Below are positions 49,724 to 62,043 of a stretch of 62,043 nucleotides of DNA, in pieces (within the stretch, counting starts at the first letter, position 1; each line of letters begins with the position of its first letter). The position numbers were made by a program, and so were the translations under genes. A model generated the notes under the pieces. The model was given only the letters and a program-made list of their open reading frames with translations, ran no database searches and was not told the origin of the DNA. This stretch comes from an uncultured Flavobacteriales bacterium. GTDB taxonomy: Bacteria > Bacteroidota > Bacteroidia > Flavobacteriales_D > Parvicellaceae. The stretch is taken from positions 1 to 62,043 of the forward strand of contig CAJQPO010000019.1 of NCBI GenBank assembly GCA_905480225.1, given 5' to 3'.

Positions 49724-50377
49724 TTAAAGAATCTCCCATTGAGAGATTAACGGCATTCTAACGATTACTTTGGTTCCATTTATTTCTCCATCAGCATGGA
49801 CTTGATCTTGCATTTCGGTTTCAAATCCTTTACCGATGGCATTGTTAAGCATTTCCATACGAACCTCGGTTAATGACATGCCTTTAGATTCGTAACCTCC
49901 TACCTTCATTTGCTTCAATTCATTCGCTTTTTTTCTACCTACACCATCGTCTGTTATAATACAATTCAAAAACGTATCGTTTCTACTAAAGGTCACCTGA
50001 ATATTTCCTTTACCTTCCTTATTTCCAATACCGTGAACTATGGCGTTTTCAACGAAGGGCTGGATTAACATTGGAGGTACCATAATGTCTTCAACGTCTA
50101 TGTTTTCGGAAACTTCAATATTAAAAAATAATTTCCCTCTAAACCTGTCCATCTCTAAGTTAAGATAAGTTGTTAAAAAATCAATTTCAGTTTGAAGAGA
50201 TATAAATTCTTTATCGGAATTATTAAGAGAGGTACGAACCAGTTTAGAGAACTGAGAAATACTTTCAATAGCCACTTCCTTATTTTCTTCCATCACATGA
50301 AATTGTATTGAATTGAGCACATTAAAGATGAAATGGGGATTCATTTGCGAAATCAAAGACCTTAGCTTGTATTGCAA
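49724..50377 (-). CDS. LytS-type histidine kinase without its own sensor
   Basis: This 217-residue protein contains only a His_kinase domain (histidine in QMNPHFIFNVLNS near residue 14) and an HATPase domain (FVENAIVHGIGNKEGKG, ITDDGVGRKKANE). No sensor or membrane helix is present. The TTG at 50377 is the best start (AAAGGA lies about ten bases upstream); no ATG exists in the open frame above it. The frame upstream encodes a coiled segment, INAELSLKEQEA, which continues the receiver protein at 50413-50784 with a one-base shift. It may have been one receiver-kinase protein; see findings. Confidence 0.75.
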   Translation of the reverse strand: MQYKLRSLISQMNPHFIFNVLNSIQFHVMEENKEVAIESISQFSKLVRTSLNNSDKEFISLQTEIDFLTTYLNLEMDRFRGKLFFNIEVSENIDVEDIMVPPMLIQPFVENAIVHGIGNKEGKGNIQVTFSRNDTFLNCIITDDGVGRKKANELKQMKVGGYESKGMSLTEVRMEMLNNAIGKGFETEMQDQVHADGEINGTKVIVRMPLISQWEIL

Positions 50378-50412
50378 GGCTTCTTGTTCCTTTAGGCTCA
50401 GTTCAGCGTTTA

Positions 50413-50784
50413 TTAATTCTTGAGATCGAATAGGGCATTCACTCGGGCTTTTAAAATGATGGCATTGATTGGCTTTTCAATAAAGTCATTGGCGCCATAT
50501 TCAAAACAGTCTGCTAATGTGTCATTGTCGCCTTCACCAGTCATCATAATTACAGGAATGGTTGACCAAGCATCATTTGCTTTAATTCTCTTCAATAGCT
50601 CAATGCCGTTTATTTCAGGCATATTTACGTCAATCAAAATCAAATTAAATGGGTCTTTCTCTAATCGTTGCAATGCAAAACTAGGTTTCGGTACAAAGGC
50701 GACCTCATGACCAAAACTGGAGATGAGTTCAGTCAATTGCTCAATAACTAAGCGGTCGTCGTCGATAATTAGTACACTGCTCAT
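50413..50784 (-). CDS. Stand-alone receiver (CheY-like) protein
   Basis: This 123-residue protein consists of a single receiver domain: acidic pair in IIDDDR, phospho-acceptor aspartate in LILIDVNMPEING, threonine in MMTGEGD and lysine in FIEKPIN. Its start overlaps the hybrid kinase stop by four bases (ATGA), so it is co-translated. It ends in NALFDLKN, the point where receiver-kinase fusion proteins normally run into a coiled linker. Confidence 0.88.
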   Translation of the reverse strand: MSSVLIIDDDRLVIEQLTELISSFGHEVAFVPKPSFALQRLEKDPFNLILIDVNMPEINGIELLKRIKANDAWSTIPVIMMTGEGDNDTLADCFEYGANDFIEKPINAIILKARVNALFDLKN

Positions 50785-53700
50785 TTGAGTTTTTCCAATT
50801 CTGAGATTAATACAGTTTCGTTCCCGTCATAAATAGCGTCTGAAATTAGTTTGAGGTTCGCATCAATTTCTATTTTATGCTGCTTACAATAGTTTTTTAA
50901 ATGATTTAAATTTTCTAGCAATTTTTCGGATTCAAATATGGGCGTTTCTAGTATTTGATCAATTTTTAATGAAAATTCAGCCGCATTTTTTTCGGGTACA
51001 TCTACTTTTGTATCTATCCTTTCATCATTGTTGCCAAAATCAAGTTGATCGGGCTTTACATGACTGAATTTTGATAAAGTGTAAAGTAATTTATTTAAGT
51101 CCAGTGGTTTTGTTAAGTAATCTACCACTCCTGCATCATAGGCCATTTTTCGCGTTTCAGCGAAGGCATCAGCCGAATATGCAATAATTGGTATCGCATG
51201 TAGCTCACTATTTGATTTGATTTGTTGAATGGTCTCGAGGCCGTCCATTCCGGGCATGTGCATATCCATTAAGATTGCATTTGGCCTATGCTCTTCCACT
51301 TTTTGAATGCCTTCTATTCCATTATTTGCAACAATCAAATCCACATTAACTCGTTCCATCAGGGCTTTAACGAGGTCCTGATTAAGCACATTGTCTTCTA
51401 CTAAAACAATTTTAAAATCATTTTCGAAAACGACAGAATCCAGATTTGTAAATTGATTTTCAGTTTTGGTATCTGTCGGGTTGGCTGCTATCAGAGGGAT
51501 GGTTACCTTAAAAGTGGAGCCTATTGATTTATCACTCTGGGCTGTAATGCTTCCATTCATTAAGTTTACAATACTTCTAGAGATGGCTAGGCCAAGTCCT
51601 GAACCCCCAAACTCACGGGTTACTGAGGTATCTTCTTGTTCAAAAGGATCAAAAATACTTTCCAATCGGTTAGCGTCGATGCCAATTCCCTCGTCAATAA
51701 TATGAAAAGCAAGGCGCTCGGACTGTTTTTGTGCATTGATCTTTACTTTTTTACCAGATGGAGTAAATTTGATCGCGTTAGCAGTCAAGTTCATTAAAAC
51801 TTGCATAATTTTTGTCCTGTCACCATAAATGTAATTAGGTAATTTTTCATCTATTTCGTAACTGAAATTGATTTTTTTGTCTTTGGCCGCAGATTTGTTA
51901 ATGTGATAGACATTTTTAATAATCTGTTCAAGTTTAAACTCCTCATTATCTAATTCCAGTTTGCCTGATTCGATTTTACTTAGGTCAAGAATGTCATTAA
52001 TGATTGCAGAAAGGTTTTTGCTGCTCATTTCAATATTATCCAAATAAGTCATTGATTTATCAGAAAAACCTTCTTTAGTAGAAATCCCTTTCATTATTTG
52101 ACTGAATCCTAATATTGCATTTAGTGGAGACCTTATTTCGTGACTCATGTTGGCTAAAAAGTTTGTTTTCGCATTACTCGCACTTTCAGCCAAGTTTTTA
52201 GATCTTTCAAGCTCTTTCTCAATAATTCGTCTTTCAAAGATCTCATGACGAAGCTCAGATGTTCTTCTTTCAACTGCAGCTTCAAGATTTTCGGTAAAAC
52301 GTTTGATTTCTTCTTTACTTTGATGATGCTCGATAGAGATTTTTAATATGTTATTGATGGCATTTATTGCATCCGTTTCTTCGTTCGTTACTTCTTTTTC
52401 AGTATCAAAGAAGATGATAATGACTCCTCGAATCCCTAAATGTCTCGATACAATTGGAAAAGCATAGCCCGTGTTTGAAAAATCAACTAATTCATTGTCG
52501 TCAACAGTAAACCTGGCATAATCTCCTTTTGTATTTTCTTTAATGACCGCTTCAGGATACATACCTGCGAATTTCAAATTGAGAAAAAATGGCTCATGCT
52601 TTTTTGAGTTGGCTCCAATCAGATTGAAACTTTGTTCAATTCGGTTGTAATTATAAACGGCCGCAAGCATTTCCCCAGAACGTACCTCTTCAAAAGAGCG
52701 AAGTGACTGCTGAACAATTCGCCTATAATCAACACTTTTCGCAACATTTTCAAGTAAAATTTGCTGGACGTGTTTGTTGCGTTCTTGTAGCTTTCGTACG
52801 GTTATGTCTCTAACAATTGCTCTCGAACCTAGGTAATTCTTTTGTTCATCAAAAATGGCTGAAGAGCTTATTTCAACGTATTTTGTTTCACCTTGTTTTG
52901 CAATGATTCTACCAATAAAATTTGAATGGAACTCACTAGTTTTTAGCTTCTGATAGAAAGCGTTTGAACGCTCACGATCAAGCGGATGAACAAGTTCTAT
53001 TAAGCTAACTTTAAGAATTTCTGTCTTAGAATATCCAAATAGTTTTTGTGCAGCATAATTGGCAAGTATTATCTGACCGTCCTTATTCAGAGAGATTACG
53101 GAATCCTTTAAATTGTCTATAAGGTCAGTATACTTATTGTTTAATACCTTCAGATCTTTCTCAAATCGAATTTTTTTCAACACATTATTAGCCTGCTTCA
53201 AGTACCTTATGATGGCTTCAATAGATTCATTTTTTGGTTTTTCACTTAAAGTGAATGAGACGATACTTTTTACTTCATCTCCATATAAAATAGGTAGAAG
53301 AATGATTATTTTTATGTTGAGTATTTTAACAATCTTAGGAGCCAATTTTTTAAGGAATTTTTGCTCGACATGTTGCTCAATAAATTCTTGAATCTGTTTT
53401 TCACTGCTTATTATATTCGGCTCTTGAGTGCTTAATAATTTCCGAACATAATCGTTGGTACCCGGATCTGGAACTATGCTCTTTATTTTTACTTTGGATA
53501 AAGCTTCAAACTTACTTCTGACAGAGGATTCCATTTTTTCCGATACCATGTATAGTTTCTGTGAAACTGTATCGTAATCGTACAACCTTGTTGCTGTCGG
53601 TTTAATTATTTCAGATAATCCGTCTGTTATTTTTTTTGTCAAGAATGGAAGATTATCTTCTTTTTCGGCTGCTTGAATCAAGTTTTGAGTAAATAGAATT

Positions 53701-54881
53701 TCTTTATAAGATCTTTGTATTTCTGCCTGAGCTTTTTTCCGGCTAGAGATATCCCTCACATGATATTGGATAACTTCATGGCCTTCATACTGAGCAATTT
53801 TAGAACTTATTTCTACGGGTACAATTTGACCATCTTTTCGAATGTGGCCATGTTCATAAACTACTTTGCCCGAAGTTTCTATTTCTTGTTGAATCCAATT
53901 TTTCTTGACCTTGTCAAATGGAATATTTATTAAATCGATTGATTTTCCTATTAGCTCTTTCTTTTTATACCCTAATGTTTCAACTGCTTTTTTATTGATT
54001 TGTTTGAAAATGCCCTCTTTTCGCGAAACGATGTAGATTCCGTCGTTAGCATTCTCAAAAAGTGTTCTGAATTTAAGTTCACTTTCTTTTACAGCAAGCT
54101 CGGCTTGCTTCATTGCCGTTATGTCACTAAGAACAGCCATTCCTCCAATTTTCCTTTCATTCTGATCATAAAGGGGAGTAGCATTAACCGACAGATACAT
54201 GCCTGTCTTTTTAATATACATTTCACAATTCCTTGTGGTAATACCAAATTTTACGGCCTTTGTTAGTGGAAGCTCGTCTTGATTGAAGGGGGTAATGGTA
54301 TCGATTTCGTATAATTCATATTCTTCATTCCAGTTCGCAGTTTTAGAAGATTTAGATCCTATACCGAGCAATTCGGTTGATTTCTCATTCCAAACGAGAA
54401 TTTTTAAATCATTGTCTGCAACTACCACTGCTTCGGTAGATTGTTGAATTACATTTTCAAGTAAATTGGAGTCATTGAATATCCCACTCACAGAATTTTT
54501 GTTGTCTGCTTTATGAGAATTTGAGTAAATACAAATTTGAACGAATGATTTTTGTTCAATACTGACGCAGTCAATGAATAATTCTACTTCACCTTGTTCT
54601 TTCAACGTCCAATTAAATGTTCGTTGGTCTTTTTCTTTGGACCGCAGGTATTTTTCGAGTTCTCCTATCTGTTTTTCAGTAACTGCGGAGGCAGTAGTTA
54701 TATAGGCGATAAAATTGATTTCTTGAATTTGGTCAGAAGAAGAGATTTGGAAATAACGCATTCCAGCTTCATTAATAAAGCTCATTCGCAAGTTATTATC
54801 AAGTAATAAAATGGGTATTGGAACCGTGTTTATTGTTGATAAACCGTCTGACTCTAAAGGTGTTGACTTTAATTTCTCCAA
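50781..54881 (-). CDS. Multi-PAS/GAF hybrid histidine kinase with receiver domain
   Basis: This 1366-residue cytoplasmic sensor has about four PAS domains (starting near 15, 138, 268 and 575), two GAF-like regions (about 395-570 and 705-860), a HisKA domain with the histidine in MSHEIRSPLNAILG near residue 913, an HATPase domain (DEGIGIDANRLESIFDPFEQ, GGSGLGLAI) and a receiver (about 1155-1270, aspartate in ILMDMHMPGMDG). The final 95 residues lack a phosphotransfer histidine. The start is TTG at 54881; an in-frame stop lies 19 codons upstream and no ATG is available. It heads the signalling array. Confidence 0.88.
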   Translation of the reverse strand: MEKLKSTPLESDGLSTINTVPIPILLLDNNLRMSFINEAGMRYFQISSSDQIQEINFIAYITTASAVTEKQIGELEKYLRSKEKDQRTFNWTLKEQGEVELFIDCVSIEQKSFVQICIYSNSHKADNKNSVSGIFNDSNLLENVIQQSTEAVVVADNDLKILVWNEKSTELLGIGSKSSKTANWNEEYELYEIDTITPFNQDELPLTKAVKFGITTRNCEMYIKKTGMYLSVNATPLYDQNERKIGGMAVLSDITAMKQAELAVKESELKFRTLFENANDGIYIVSRKEGIFKQINKKAVETLGYKKKELIGKSIDLINIPFDKVKKNWIQQEIETSGKVVYEHGHIRKDGQIVPVEISSKIAQYEGHEVIQYHVRDISSRKKAQAEIQRSYKEILFTQNLIQAAEKEDNLPFLTKKITDGLSEIIKPTATRLYDYDTVSQKLYMVSEKMESSVRSKFEALSKVKIKSIVPDPGTNDYVRKLLSTQEPNIISSEKQIQEFIEQHVEQKFLKKLAPKIVKILNIKIIILLPILYGDEVKSIVSFTLSEKPKNESIEAIIRYLKQANNVLKKIRFEKDLKVLNNKYTDLIDNLKDSVISLNKDGQIILANYAAQKLFGYSKTEILKVSLIELVHPLDRERSNAFYQKLKTSEFHSNFIGRIIAKQGETKYVEISSSAIFDEQKNYLGSRAIVRDITVRKLQERNKHVQQILLENVAKSVDYRRIVQQSLRSFEEVRSGEMLAAVYNYNRIEQSFNLIGANSKKHEPFFLNLKFAGMYPEAVIKENTKGDYARFTVDDNELVDFSNTGYAFPIVSRHLGIRGVIIIFFDTEKEVTNEETDAINAINNILKISIEHHQSKEEIKRFTENLEAAVERRTSELRHEIFERRIIEKELERSKNLAESASNAKTNFLANMSHEIRSPLNAILGFSQIMKGISTKEGFSDKSMTYLDNIEMSSKNLSAIINDILDLSKIESGKLELDNEEFKLEQIIKNVYHINKSAAKDKKINFSYEIDEKLPNYIYGDRTKIMQVLMNLTANAIKFTPSGKKVKINAQKQSERLAFHIIDEGIGIDANRLESIFDPFEQEDTSVTREFGGSGLGLAISRSIVNLMNGSITAQSDKSIGSTFKVTIPLIAANPTDTKTENQFTNLDSVVFENDFKIVLVEDNVLNQDLVKALMERVNVDLIVANNGIEGIQKVEEHRPNAILMDMHMPGMDGLETIQQIKSNSELHAIPIIAYSADAFAETRKMAYDAGVVDYLTKPLDLNKLLYTLSKFSHVKPDQLDFGNNDERIDTKVDVPEKNAAEFSLKIDQILETPIFESEKLLENLNHLKNYCKQHKIEIDANLKLISDAIYDGNETVLISELEKLK

Positions 54882-55172: not shown

Positions 55173-58100
55173 ATGATTTTTAGAAAACTAGCCATTATCC
55201 TTATTGTAAGTTTGAACATTACTTCATTGGGTTGTTTTGGTCAAGCCCCAGTTTCGGCTTTTAGTGCTACTAATACGGAAGGATGCGCACCATTTAGCGT
55301 GACATTTATTAATTCTTCAGTAGGAGCATCCTCTTATTACTGGGAATTTGGCGATGGAACATCTTCTGTTAATTCGAGTCCGACTGTAACTTATTTAACG
55401 CAAGGGTTCTTCACGGTAACATTGATAGTCACAGATTCGGCAGGGGATCAAGATACGTTGGTAATAAACGATTTTATCCATGTGGTCGATGATCCAATTG
55501 CTGATTTCTCAGCGATTCAGCTTGGTAATTGTGAAAATGATAACGTTGTTAATTTCAACAATGAGTCTACGAATGCTACGGAATTTCTGTGGGATTTTGG
55601 AGATGGTTCAACGGTAGTTGCTGAAAACCCAACTCACACATATTCAGCTTCGGGTACGTATTCCATAACACTTATTGCTTCCAATAATGTAGGATGTTCC
55701 CATGTGAAGCAGATTATGAGTGCAATAACTATTCATCCATTGCCCGATGTTCAATTTTCAGTGGATCAATACGCTTCCTGTGACCCTAATCAAATTTATC
55801 AATTTACGAATTTAACGGCCAGTGCTGTTTCTAGTTTTTGGGATTTTGGGGCCGGTGCTAGTTCGATATCTAGTGCGCCAACTCATAATTTTTCTGCTAC
55901 AGGATTTTTTGATGTTTCGTTAATTTGTACGAATTCACATGGTTGCAACGATACGCTAATCAAAACCGATTTAGTTGAAAATTTTGAAGAACCTACAGTA
56001 GTTATTCATGCAAGTGATTTTGAAGTATGCGAGGGGGATTCTATTTTGTTTTCAGACTCAACCAATAATGCGGTATTTTATTATTGGGATTTAGGTAGTG
56101 GCATCGTAGATTCTAATAGTGTTGTATCTAAAGTGTATCTCGATAGCGGTAATTATGTTGTTGAACTCAGTGTAACGGACAATAATGGTTGTATTGGTTC
56201 AAATAGTATTCTTATTGCTGTAGAGTCGAGTCCCATAGTTGATATTCTGCCATCTGATTCAGTAATTTGTTCTGGTGAGGAAGTTGCATGGACGAATAAC
56301 AGTATTAATGCGTTACATCATTCATGGAATATTAGTGGAGTAGGTGGATCCGTGGCATCAGAGCCAACCAATACCTATCCTATTCCTGGAAGCTATGATG
56401 TAGAATATCGCGCTACTTCGATTAATGGTTGTAAGACCTTTGCCAATAAGATAATTCTCGTAAATGGTTCTCAAAGTGATTTCACATTCAATGAAAATAT
56501 GGGCTGTGCTCCACTCGATGTGCAATTTATTGATAATAGTATTGATGCGGCATCTTGGTATTGGAATTTTGGAGACGGCGATACATCTGTATTACCCAAC
56601 CCTTCTCACGTGTTTAATGGTGATTCTGCTTATACTGTTTCATTAATTACTTCAGGATCTTTTGGTTGTCTTGATACCCTTATTATGCATTCATTAATTC
56701 AGATAACTTCAGATACATTGAGTATTGCAATTGCTGATACTGTTTCCGGTTGTTTGCCGTTTCCGGTAGACTTATCCAATAATATTATCGGATCAAATTC
56801 ATGGTTTTGGGATTTTGGAGATGGTACTACCTCATCTCTAGCGCATCCAACTCATACTTACTTAACACCAGGGGTGTATACGGTCACTTTAACTACTCAA
56901 ACTGCTAATGGTTGCTATTTAGTAGTTGATAATTATGCTACGTTTAAATTTGAAGATTTTGTCAGTGGTTTCTCCGCTGTTGAGGTTAGTTGTGATGGTC
57001 TAATAGTTGAATTTATAGATACAACAAGTAACTCAGTAAGCTGGGCATGGGACTTTGGTGATGGTTCTTTTTCTAATTCCCAGAACCCGATACATATGTT
57101 TAGTGATTCTGGTAGTCAGGACATACAATTGACTGTGATATCCTCGTCCGGATGTATGAGTAGCGTTTTAATAAATAACTTCATAAATTTTACCAATTGT
57201 ACGATGAATGGTAGTAGTATCCCACCAGAATTAATTGGTACCCCAGTCCCTGGTGGTGGTATAACAACGGTTCCAGATTCTAACTATACAATGTACAGCT
57301 GTTCGCCTATGGCGGTCTATTACTACAGTCCATTTACAAATGCGACAAGTTGGTATTGGGATTTTGGCGATGGGACAACATCTACAACCGAAAATAATTA
57401 TCATATCTATACTACACCTGGAACCTATGATGTTAACCTAATCGTACAAACTTCATCAGGACAAGATACAATGGAACTTATAGATTACGTTGTCATTCAA
57501 GGACCGGTTGCAAGTTTCACGAGTACAATCGATTATTCTTGCACCAGCAACTCCATTCTCTTTTCAGATAATTCAATCAATGCGATTGATTGGTTTTGGG
57601 ATTTTGGCGACGGATCTACTTCTACTAGTTCATCACAGAGTCATACCTACCTTAATAGCGATATCATTATCCCTGTTAGTCTTGAAGTTACTGACACGAA
57701 TGGTTGTCGGTCTTCGTATAGCTCGATGATTAGCTTAATGAGTTTTAATCCAATCTTTGTTTTTGAGGATACGATTTGTTTAGGTGAATCAATTGATTTC
57801 ATGCCGGCAGACACTTCGTCTTATGTTTACTCTTGGGATTTTGGTGACGGATTTACGAGTACAGACCAGCTTCCTAGTCACATTTATCAAAGTCCAGGAA
57901 CCTACCAAGTATCTGTTCAAGCGACACACATTTTGGGTTGTACAGATATTTATTTATTGGATAGTATTCTTGTCATAGGATTGGATCAAGGCATTATTGT
58001 ATCGGATTCTACAGTTGGCTGTAAAGGCGATGTTTTTGTCTTGAGTCCGACAGATACTACAGCTGACTACTATTATTGGTATTTAGCACCATCAAACCCA

Positions 58101-61100: not shown

Positions 61101-61847
61101 GAGCACTGTACAATGAATATTTCTGCAGAAATATCCGGAATACATCATGCCAATATATCTTGGACTCCCTATTTAGGTTGTTCAATAGCTTCTTATGAAC
61201 TCTTCCGATACGATGGTGACGATACTACAGCAATTTTCATTGCTTCGCTGTCACCTTCGGTAACTGATTATGATGATTCAACGAATTATTGTAATGTGGC
61301 ATATAGTTATAAAGTGATGGCTACAGAGGTTTGTGGTGACGTATTGAATTCATGGAGTGACTCTGCAGGTATTGTTGCTCTTGGGATTTATGATAAACAA
61401 ATTTCCAATGTAATTAGAGCAACTGTGGTCAATGATGAGTCTGTTTGGGTGGAATGGTCTGTACCTGTAATTGCTTCAAGTTTTGTTGATTATTATCAAA
61501 TTTTGAGGTCAGACGATACGACTGATTTTGTACCGGTAGGAATGGTTCCAGATGGAGTGAATGGATTTAATGATGAAACAGTAGATGTGTTTAGTGAACG
61601 GTATTTTTACCGGATTCAGGTAGTTAATGGTTGCCCAGAGACTAATGTTGTCGGTGATTTGGGATCCTCAATTCTTTTAAAAGCCACTAAGCTAACAGAA
61701 ACTGAAGGAAGTCTAGATTGGACACCATATAAAGGTTGGAGTAGTGGAGTAGATTACTACGAAATACAAGTGCTCAACGAGTTCAACCAGTGGGAAACGG
61801 TTAAAATTGTAAATGGCTCAATTTTACAAACTATTGTACATTTTTAA
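55173..61847 (+). CDS. Giant secreted PKD-repeat protein, apparently truncated at the C-terminus
   Basis: This protein of about 2,224 residues begins with a signal peptide (ATG at 55173, ending CFGQA; ATG at 55134 would add 13 residues). About seventeen PKD or PKD-like domains follow, most with W.FGDG, then five copies of a 75/76-residue repeat with GG.WSG.GI and FDPS..G.G.HT (DNA about 59,460-60,570), one more PKD-like unit (WDFGNG), and fibronectin-like domains from about 60,830. Such proteins are surface adhesins secreted by the T9SS. It stops within a fibronectin-like domain (ILQTIVHF) and has no CHU_C or type A sorting domain. It could be a broken gene. Confidence 0.85.
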   Translation: MIFRKLAIILIVSLNITSLGCFGQAPVSAFSATNTEGCAPFSVTFINSSVGASSYYWEFGDGTSSVNSSPTVTYLTQGFFTVTLIVTDSAGDQDTLVINDFIHVVDDPIADFSAIQLGNCENDNVVNFNNESTNATEFLWDFGDGSTVVAENPTHTYSASGTYSITLIASNNVGCSHVKQIMSAITIHPLPDVQFSVDQYASCDPNQIYQFTNLTASAVSSFWDFGAGASSISSAPTHNFSATGFFDVSLICTNSHGCNDTLIKTDLVENFEEPTVVIHASDFEVCEGDSILFSDSTNNAVFYYWDLGSGIVDSNSVVSKVYLDSGNYVVELSVTDNNGCIGSNSILIAVESSPIVDILPSDSVICSGEEVAWTNNSINALHHSWNISGVGGSVASEPTNTYPIPGSYDVEYRATSINGCKTFANKIILVNGSQSDFTFNENMGCAPLDVQFIDNSIDAASWYWNFGDGDTSVLPNPSHVFNGDSAYTVSLITSGSFGCLDTLIMHSLIQITSDTLSIAIADTVSGCLPFPVDLSNNIIGSNSWFWDFGDGTTSSLAHPTHTYLTPGVYTVTLTTQTANGCYLVVDNYATFKFEDFVSGFSAVEVSCDGLIVEFIDTTSNSVSWAWDFGDGSFSNSQNPIHMFSDSGSQDIQLTVISSSGCMSSVLINNFINFTNCTMNGSSIPPELIGTPVPGGGITTVPDSNYTMYSCSPMAVYYYSPFTNATSWYWDFGDGTTSTTENNYHIYTTPGTYDVNLIVQTSSGQDTMELIDYVVIQGPVASFTSTIDYSCTSNSILFSDNSINAIDWFWDFGDGSTSTSSSQSHTYLNSDIIIPVSLEVTDTNGCRSSYSSMISLMSFNPIFVFEDTICLGESIDFMPADTSSYVYSWDFGDGFTSTDQLPSHIYQSPGTYQVSVQATHILGCTDIYLLDSILVIGLDQGIIVSDSTVGCKGDVFVLSPTDTTADYYYWYLAPSNPVVWYKFDGEMYPEFQTPHPFTYDVLLISSKGSCIDTVFMDSLIEVREVNSNFNINQLDYCEPFLVEVTSLGSTVVDWEWSYLGNTMNGPASFQTNIPSGETQFLLQVTDDIGCISEDSLSIIPDAMIAAIGSSNPAGCVPHSVDFLSESNNANSWFWDFGDGVISNVEAPTHTYLNAGSYDVTLIVGSPTGNCFDTIVYPAYANVSFPNADFSYIGNFSCAPMIVEFTDLSSDDTDLTWDFGDGAISSMSNPNHIYNLPGHYDVSLTAIDSNGCSHTKSMPNAVFVPGPIAEFTASQTTVCDSGMVQFTDMSSSAVSWSWTFGDGNSSNAQHPNHMFDSHGWYTVALIVQDSMGCATSAIMDTMITVLESPKALFTVSDTLGCNPFTMTMTDQTVGADSWMWDMGDGSQFVSMPSTHYFSDSGIFNVSVVASIQGACFDTFSVAIQVVNFADASIDSVADLCQQDLAINLTSNQIGGIWSGVGVVNTTTGIFDPSIAGAGLHTLFYTMPGSCGTMDSTEVLVLSNQAATINAVSQVCEGQAPITMSSLNPGGLWSGIGIVDSISGVFDPSVSGIGSYTVYYATSNGSCMDFDSAQIDVVVEANASINPVDGQCETDNPIVISAAQNGGTWSGPGILNASTGEFDPSIAGAGTHTVIYEISGDCGDIDSVEIEVFEFIEATFAAPSAVCNGADLFLISSANLGGVWSGTGIVDSIQGEFDPSISGVGNFSITYTINNGLCSDQSMNQITVLPDEDASFSSIGPLCDNDAAQALVAMNSGGLFAGIGITSASVGLFNPVVAGPGVHTITYAIGGLCGDTVSHDIIINPTPEIEITSSGVNGCSSLEVSFISNSSIVGGLYNWDFGNGLTSELPNPEITFGPGQFVVTLTFTSNEGCTDSVALPGLINVLDSIPEIPVIKRVSVLSNTSVLVDWEESVDPSFRSYNLFRKNLTTGVFEEIEIVNVLGATSFIDEGLNTLQNVYCYKLIETDICDNYIDVLEAVEHCTMNISAEISGIHHANISWTPYLGCSIASYELFRYDGDDTTAIFIASLSPSVTDYDDSTNYCNVAYSYKVMATEVCGDVLNSWSDSAGIVALGIYDKQISNVIRATVVNDESVWVEWSVPVIASSFVDYYQILRSDDTTDFVPVGMVPDGVNGFNDETVDVFSERYFYRIQVVNGCPETNVVGDLGSSILLKATKLTETEGSLDWTPYKGWSSGVDYYEIQVLNEFNQWETVKIVNGSILQTIVHF
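59460..60570 (+). repeat. Five tandem GGxWSG repeats in the PKD protein
   Basis: The GG of each copy starts at 59526, 59751, 59979, 60204 and 60432, giving spacings of 225, 228, 225 and 228 bases (75 or 76 residues). Each copy has a cysteine before the GG, then WSG.GI (FAG.GI in copy five), an S/T..G.F.P turn and a second cysteine after the HT/YT strand. Confidence 0.85.
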
Positions 61848-62043
61848 GCGTAAAATAGGTTATTCCAAGAGCACGATCCGGTAAGTTTCACGGTTAATTC
61901 TACTCCTGTAAGGTTCATTTTATTGTTTTTCTGTGTCTTTTGAGTTTCCGAACGTATCGTTTTAAATCTGGCGCACTTGGAAATCAGATAACCCCATTTA
62001 GAAAATGCTTTTCTTCATTTGGAAGTTCGGACTTAACTAGGGT
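61848..62043. other. Right-edge segment with no supported gene
   Basis: No frame on either strand has a start and continuous open length to support a gene. Two short minus-strand frames are open (61844-62014 without an early ATG, and the last 60 bases up to the edge). The continuation of the PKD protein is not found in any frame. Confidence 0.5.

Follow-up and report, generated by a model that had tools for sequence, protein, structure and literature searches.

A giant adhesin of an uncultured Flavobacteriales bacterium may borrow its type IX sorting signal from a small partner protein

To our knowledge, substrates of the type IX secretion system (T9SS) are taken to need a sorting domain on the same chain. 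The locus described here resembles two known systems: SprB-SprF of Flavobacterium johnsoniae, in which a giant repetitive surface adhesin with a type B (CHU_C) domain has an adjacent PorP/SprF gene, and, so far as can be told from genes, PorE-PorP-PG1035 of Porphyromonas gingivalis, which joins a protein with a type B C-terminal domain (CTD) to a PorP-like barrel. Type B domains are recognized by dedicated PorP/SprF carriers, which take the substrate from SprA and anchor it at the surface (PMC9143113, PMC12618676), and in F. johnsoniae the tail cysteines of SprF (Cys-x-Cys) are disulfide-bonded to GldK on the gliding track (PMC12635249). We posit a T9SS substrate made in two pieces, of which the adhesin considered here is one; its sorting signal would be supplied in trans. 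To this reading we assign a probability of roughly 0.6.

The window analyzed is an entire contig of 62,043 nucleotides (C19); position 62043 is its physical end, with nothing to the right. The source genome (2.76 Mb in 129 contigs, 96% complete) contains genes for both SprA and GldK. On the plus strand, an ATG at 55173 opens a complete gene, closed by a TAA at 61845-61847, for a PKD/FN3 adhesin of 2,224 residues. The initial annotation had described a protein with an N-terminal signal peptide and dozens of extracellular domains that stops within an FN3-like domain and lacks a sorting signal, and most of this description stands. The signal peptide is present, as judged by eye; "dozens" is slightly overstated, but the many repeats are real, with 15 PKD_4 stretches recognized by Pfam. 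No sorting domain was found with Pfam on the protein or with NCBIfam on its last 335 residues, where Pfam gives a weak partial fn3 match only; with neither CHU_C nor TIGR04131 on its own chain, the adhesin taken alone does not qualify as a type B substrate. Its conserved C-terminus (61677-61844, ending in YEIQVLNEFNQWETVKIVNGSILQTIVHF) comprises only strands A-E, the first part of an FN3 domain, as indicated by its match to the corresponding portion of FN3 in one-chain paralogues and by structural models. Beyond the stop codon, as had also been stated, no plus-strand frame resumes the domain and 61848-62043 holds no gene; nor does the tail contain a known RNA element at gathering threshold. 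Next to the adhesin, on the minus strand at 49724-54881, lie a hybrid PAS histidine kinase, a response regulator and a LytS-type histidine kinase. In two related genomes (G008 and G021), the adhesin is flanked by a gene fusing a response regulator to His_kinase, and their module includes a LytTR regulator; the regulation of the adhesin may therefore be conserved.

When bacterial genomes were scanned with the last 335 adhesin residues, a single relative was recovered, the Flavobacteriales MAG L025, whose 1,930-residue homologue, 40% identical to the query, ends at the equivalent residue (YEIQRLNEFNQWETIQIVPPEQREIIINF followed by the stop codon, against YEIQVLNEFNQWETVKIVNGSILQTIVHF in the adhesin). 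Searches at the level of family and order added 13 homologues from the same family and three from other families (in G045, G057 and G046), so that 17 Flavobacteriales homologues from at least four families stop at the same residue as the adhesin; some are cut at the N-terminus by contig ends or assembly frameshifts, but their C-termini are intact. Judged from these sequences, the C-terminus of the adhesin is natural, its TAA lying at a conserved end point, and the protein is whole rather than broken.

The initial annotation had allowed that the missing part might lie elsewhere, and in the relatives it does: in 17 of 17, the adhesin gene adjoins a gene for a small protein of 142-162 residues. 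This protein consists of a signal peptide (by eye), a YR(V/I/L)(V/I)A...SxSN stretch and a CHU_C/TIGR04131 sorting domain at its C-terminus, and thus supplies FN3 strands F and G, which the adhesin lacks, together with the features of a type B substrate. Its scores are well above cut-off for PF13585 (65-74 bits against 27, in all eight proteins tested) and for TIGR04131 (51-57 bits against 35, four tested). In 16 of the 17, the small gene follows the adhesin gene in the same orientation at a distance of 9-520 nt; the exception is G057, where it is found upstream, on the other strand. In 15 of the 17 loci, the next gene or the one after it encodes PorP/SprF, the other two being without an adjacent carrier gene, and both carriers tested exceed the cut-offs for PF11751 and TIGR03519. 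All 15 carrier tails examined end in CPxF, with a single cysteine in place of the Cys-x-Cys of SprF; CPxF tails also occur on carriers of other modules in the same genus, and no cysteine is present in the tails of three carriers encoded next to one-chain paralogues.

Several further arrangements were seen. In G001 and G002, where contig ends interrupt the adhesins, a copy of the module formed by the small gene and PorP/SprF is located apart from the adhesin and follows an FG-GAP/ASPIC gene or a phosphoesterase gene; the small protein may have several partners. At L081:1717-3063 and L082:5212-6599, another pair of small CHU_C-like genes with signal peptides (166-188 residues) precedes a PorP/SprF-like protein with an OmpA-like end, with no large adhesin beside them. 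In G022 (L079:1-6469), a small CHU_C gene and PorP/SprF are oriented divergently to a further large PKD protein, the C-terminus of which is off the contig.

The fit between the two halves was examined with a profile of 239 positions, built from 11 one-chain paralogues in which the last FN3 domain runs straight into CHU_C. Across 13 adhesins and 15 small proteins, adhesin C-termini cover profile positions 6-102, and the main matches of the small proteins extend from about 104 to 239; some small proteins match only from 136 on, and one match has its edge at position 93, reaching back over the signal peptide. In two relatives, G017 and G006, the adhesin and small genes are in the same frame, and AlphaFold models were made of these in-frame read-throughs as single chains, the signal peptide serving as linker. 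In the model for G017 (mean pLDDT 85.5), the adhesin contributes strands at 95-149 and the small protein strands at 189-212, separated by a helix and a low-confidence stretch that correspond to the signal peptide and linker. Alignment of tandem FN3 structures to this model covers 165-177 residues, spread across 1-215, with a high overall rmsd because the hinge differs. When the split domain of G006 was modeled in isolation (pLDDT 80.8), single FN3 domains matched over 76-89 residues that extend through both pieces, and fibronectin FN3-10 (1fna) aligned over 84 of 91 residues with a Z of 9.8 and an rmsd of 2.7 A. Pfam did not report fn3 on the joined read-through sequence, possibly owing to the interruption by the signal peptide. 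Completion of the fold by adhesin strands A-E and small-protein strands F-G is thus seen both in the single-chain models and in the complementary profile coverage. The models speak to the compatibility of the halves and not to their binding, as the covalent join itself favors assembly.

Two genes encode complementary parts of one domain; we infer that their products assemble non-covalently and are exported together. In the mechanism that we propose as the simplest, the adhesin and the small protein would each enter the periplasm by Sec, where the two FN3 halves would join into a complete domain and thereby fasten the sorting domain to the adhesin non-covalently. The sorting domain would then take the pair through SprA to the dedicated PorP/SprF carrier, which would hold the adhesin at the surface. 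Less certain is a final step, in which the conserved C-terminal Cys-Pro-x-Phe tail of the carrier would link it to GldK and the adhesin could ride the gliding track. Because the SprF tail cysteines bond GldK in F. johnsoniae, the adhesin may, by analogy, be a gliding adhesin; this is a lead, limited by the presence of one cysteine against the two of SprF and by the occurrence of CPxF on carriers of other modules.

Counting against a two-piece substrate are the module copies away from the adhesin in G001 and G002, the two of 17 loci without an adjacent PorP/SprF gene, the absence of the small gene from the binned sequence of the source genome and the single-cysteine carrier tail, whose CPxF recurs on carriers of other modules. 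The most serious competing explanation is that an ancestral gene was split into proteins that no longer cooperate. The small CHU_C protein would then either be a type B substrate in its own right or cap PorP/SprF, a role that has been proposed for PG1035 (PMC9143113), and the adhesin would be exported otherwise or left in the periplasm. Module copies without an adjacent adhesin are what such a split would allow, but the FN3 halves retain their core residues and their break point in 17 species, and the genes are adjacent in every one of the 17 loci, the inverted order included. We consider the loss of cooperation unlikely, though the strongest of the alternatives. The wider generalization, that T9SS sorting signals can be supplied in trans by a small adaptor completing the half FN3 domain of a giant adhesin, with modules that are separable, duplicated and homogenized between loci, seems to us evenly poised between true and false.

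At the adhesin stop codon, the window enters the left end of an apparent two-copy repeat of about 2 kb that, judged from its ends and from relatives, carries a small CHU_C gene and PorP/SprF (61845-62043, plus strand, 97% identical to the end of contig C125). Its last 141 bp (61903-62043) are identical to the C125 end, and its first 58 bp contain five differences. One frame over, 61846-61884 on the plus strand encodes KRKIGYSKSTIR followed by a stop codon, which is the end of the type A sorting domain of another gene. Comparison with C125 and with G002, a genome of the same genus, identifies this segment with the 3' end of a T9SS type A phosphoesterase gene, of which it is a relic lying out of frame: in both, the matching sequence comprises the last 13 codons of the phosphoesterase, in its type A sorting domain, and the region downstream, which in G002 leads into the small CHU_C gene and PorP/SprF. 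A conserved neighbor, an M48-type peptidase, led to the opposite end of the repeat. Contig C20 ends in an SprF tail (KKKKFRTLHCPVF and a stop codon) with a terminator that forms the right boundary of the repeat, and C122 and C20 share exactly 141 bp. The ends of the module are thus found on both sides of a gap, and they alone are present; the interior is missing from the bin, and a search of the binned source genome for the small CHU_C gene found other CHU_C proteins only. Judged from the repeat ends and the relatives, the source genome appears to have two module copies of about 2 kb that were collapsed and lost from the bin, and the end of C19 is an assembly break at this repeat. C125 and C122 match the gene order of G002 and C20 matches that of G001; by elimination, the adhesin locus would read C19-module-C20, C19-C122 being also formally allowed, and the predicted start of the small gene is about 40 bp past 62043. 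Since the phosphoesterase relic lies at the start of the module copy behind the adhesin, that copy was probably copied or gene-converted from the phosphoesterase locus. The two loci that share the collapsed module repeat (C19, C125, C20 and C122) suggest gene conversion between the two. In G057, the contig (L124) likewise breaks about 130 bp past the adhesin stop codon, and a repeat may follow the adhesin there as well.

An exact overlap of 141 bp presumably marks a fork in a k=141 de Bruijn graph, and since both contig pairs share exactly this length at their ends, the junction at 61845 could be a chimeric assembly join with no repeat behind the adhesin, or the forks could reflect two strains instead of two copies. 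The five differences from C125 in the first 58 bp, however, indicate a distinct copy, relatives have the same order of adhesin and then module, and each flank is syntenic with a region of G001 or G002, all of which makes an assembly artifact improbable. Far less probable still is the proposal of the initial annotation that an insertion, deletion or rearrangement truncated the adhesin. The protein does end mid-domain, and the foreign-looking phosphoesterase tail begins at the stop codon, but the junction follows a complete, conserved C-terminus. The refuting case that had been put forward was a close relative that shares the C-terminus and secretes the protein normally. At the gene level such relatives exist, and they refute truncation: the 17 homologues, drawn from at least four families, all stop where the adhesin does. 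What survives of the proposal is that recombination happened: it brought in or overwrote the module of sorting-domain protein and PorP/SprF and did not cut the adhesin. An insertion element as the cause was rejected, the tail and C125 showing no insertion-sequence feature and the relatives having the same C-terminus, and an integron-type attC core (ACTTAAC, 62032-62038) is expected by chance. Synthesis of a single polypeptide, with ribosomes reading through the stop or shifting frame into the small gene, which the shared frame in G017 and G006 might suggest, is scarcely conceivable because the genes at other loci are out of frame, the gaps range over 9-520 nt, a signal peptide intervenes and the divergent genes of G057 refute it for the family.

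Type B substrates, their carriers and FN3 domains are already known; new relative to the open literature that we searched is a putative type B substrate that is conserved in the form of two chains, with the split falling within a domain. We found no description of split, standalone or trans CTDs in the open literature (preprints and most subscription journals aside), which is weak evidence of absence. If the two-piece reading is true, a sorting signal can act through non-covalent contact and a folded pair can be exported, and the lack of a CTD in a large adhesin need not mean that the protein is broken or stays unexported, as its partner can be the next gene. Also closely comparable are one-chain FN3-CHU_C proteins of about 700 or 1,100 residues from the same order (for example L127 and G006:C4), which have the same terminal FN3 domains followed by CHU_C and usually a PorP/SprF gene nearby; here, FN3 and CHU_C are on two chains. 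The only solved structure that matches the small-protein profile, at its C-terminal end (E 3.4e-12), is grappling hook protein A (GhpA) of Aureispira (PDB 9flp), which is a single chain of 5,898 residues, unlike the two-piece adhesin. PG1035 differs in being one chain of about 50 kDa with no known CTD-less partner. Finally, SprB bears the sorting domain on its own chain, whereas the adhesin described here would acquire it from a second protein through a split FN3 domain.
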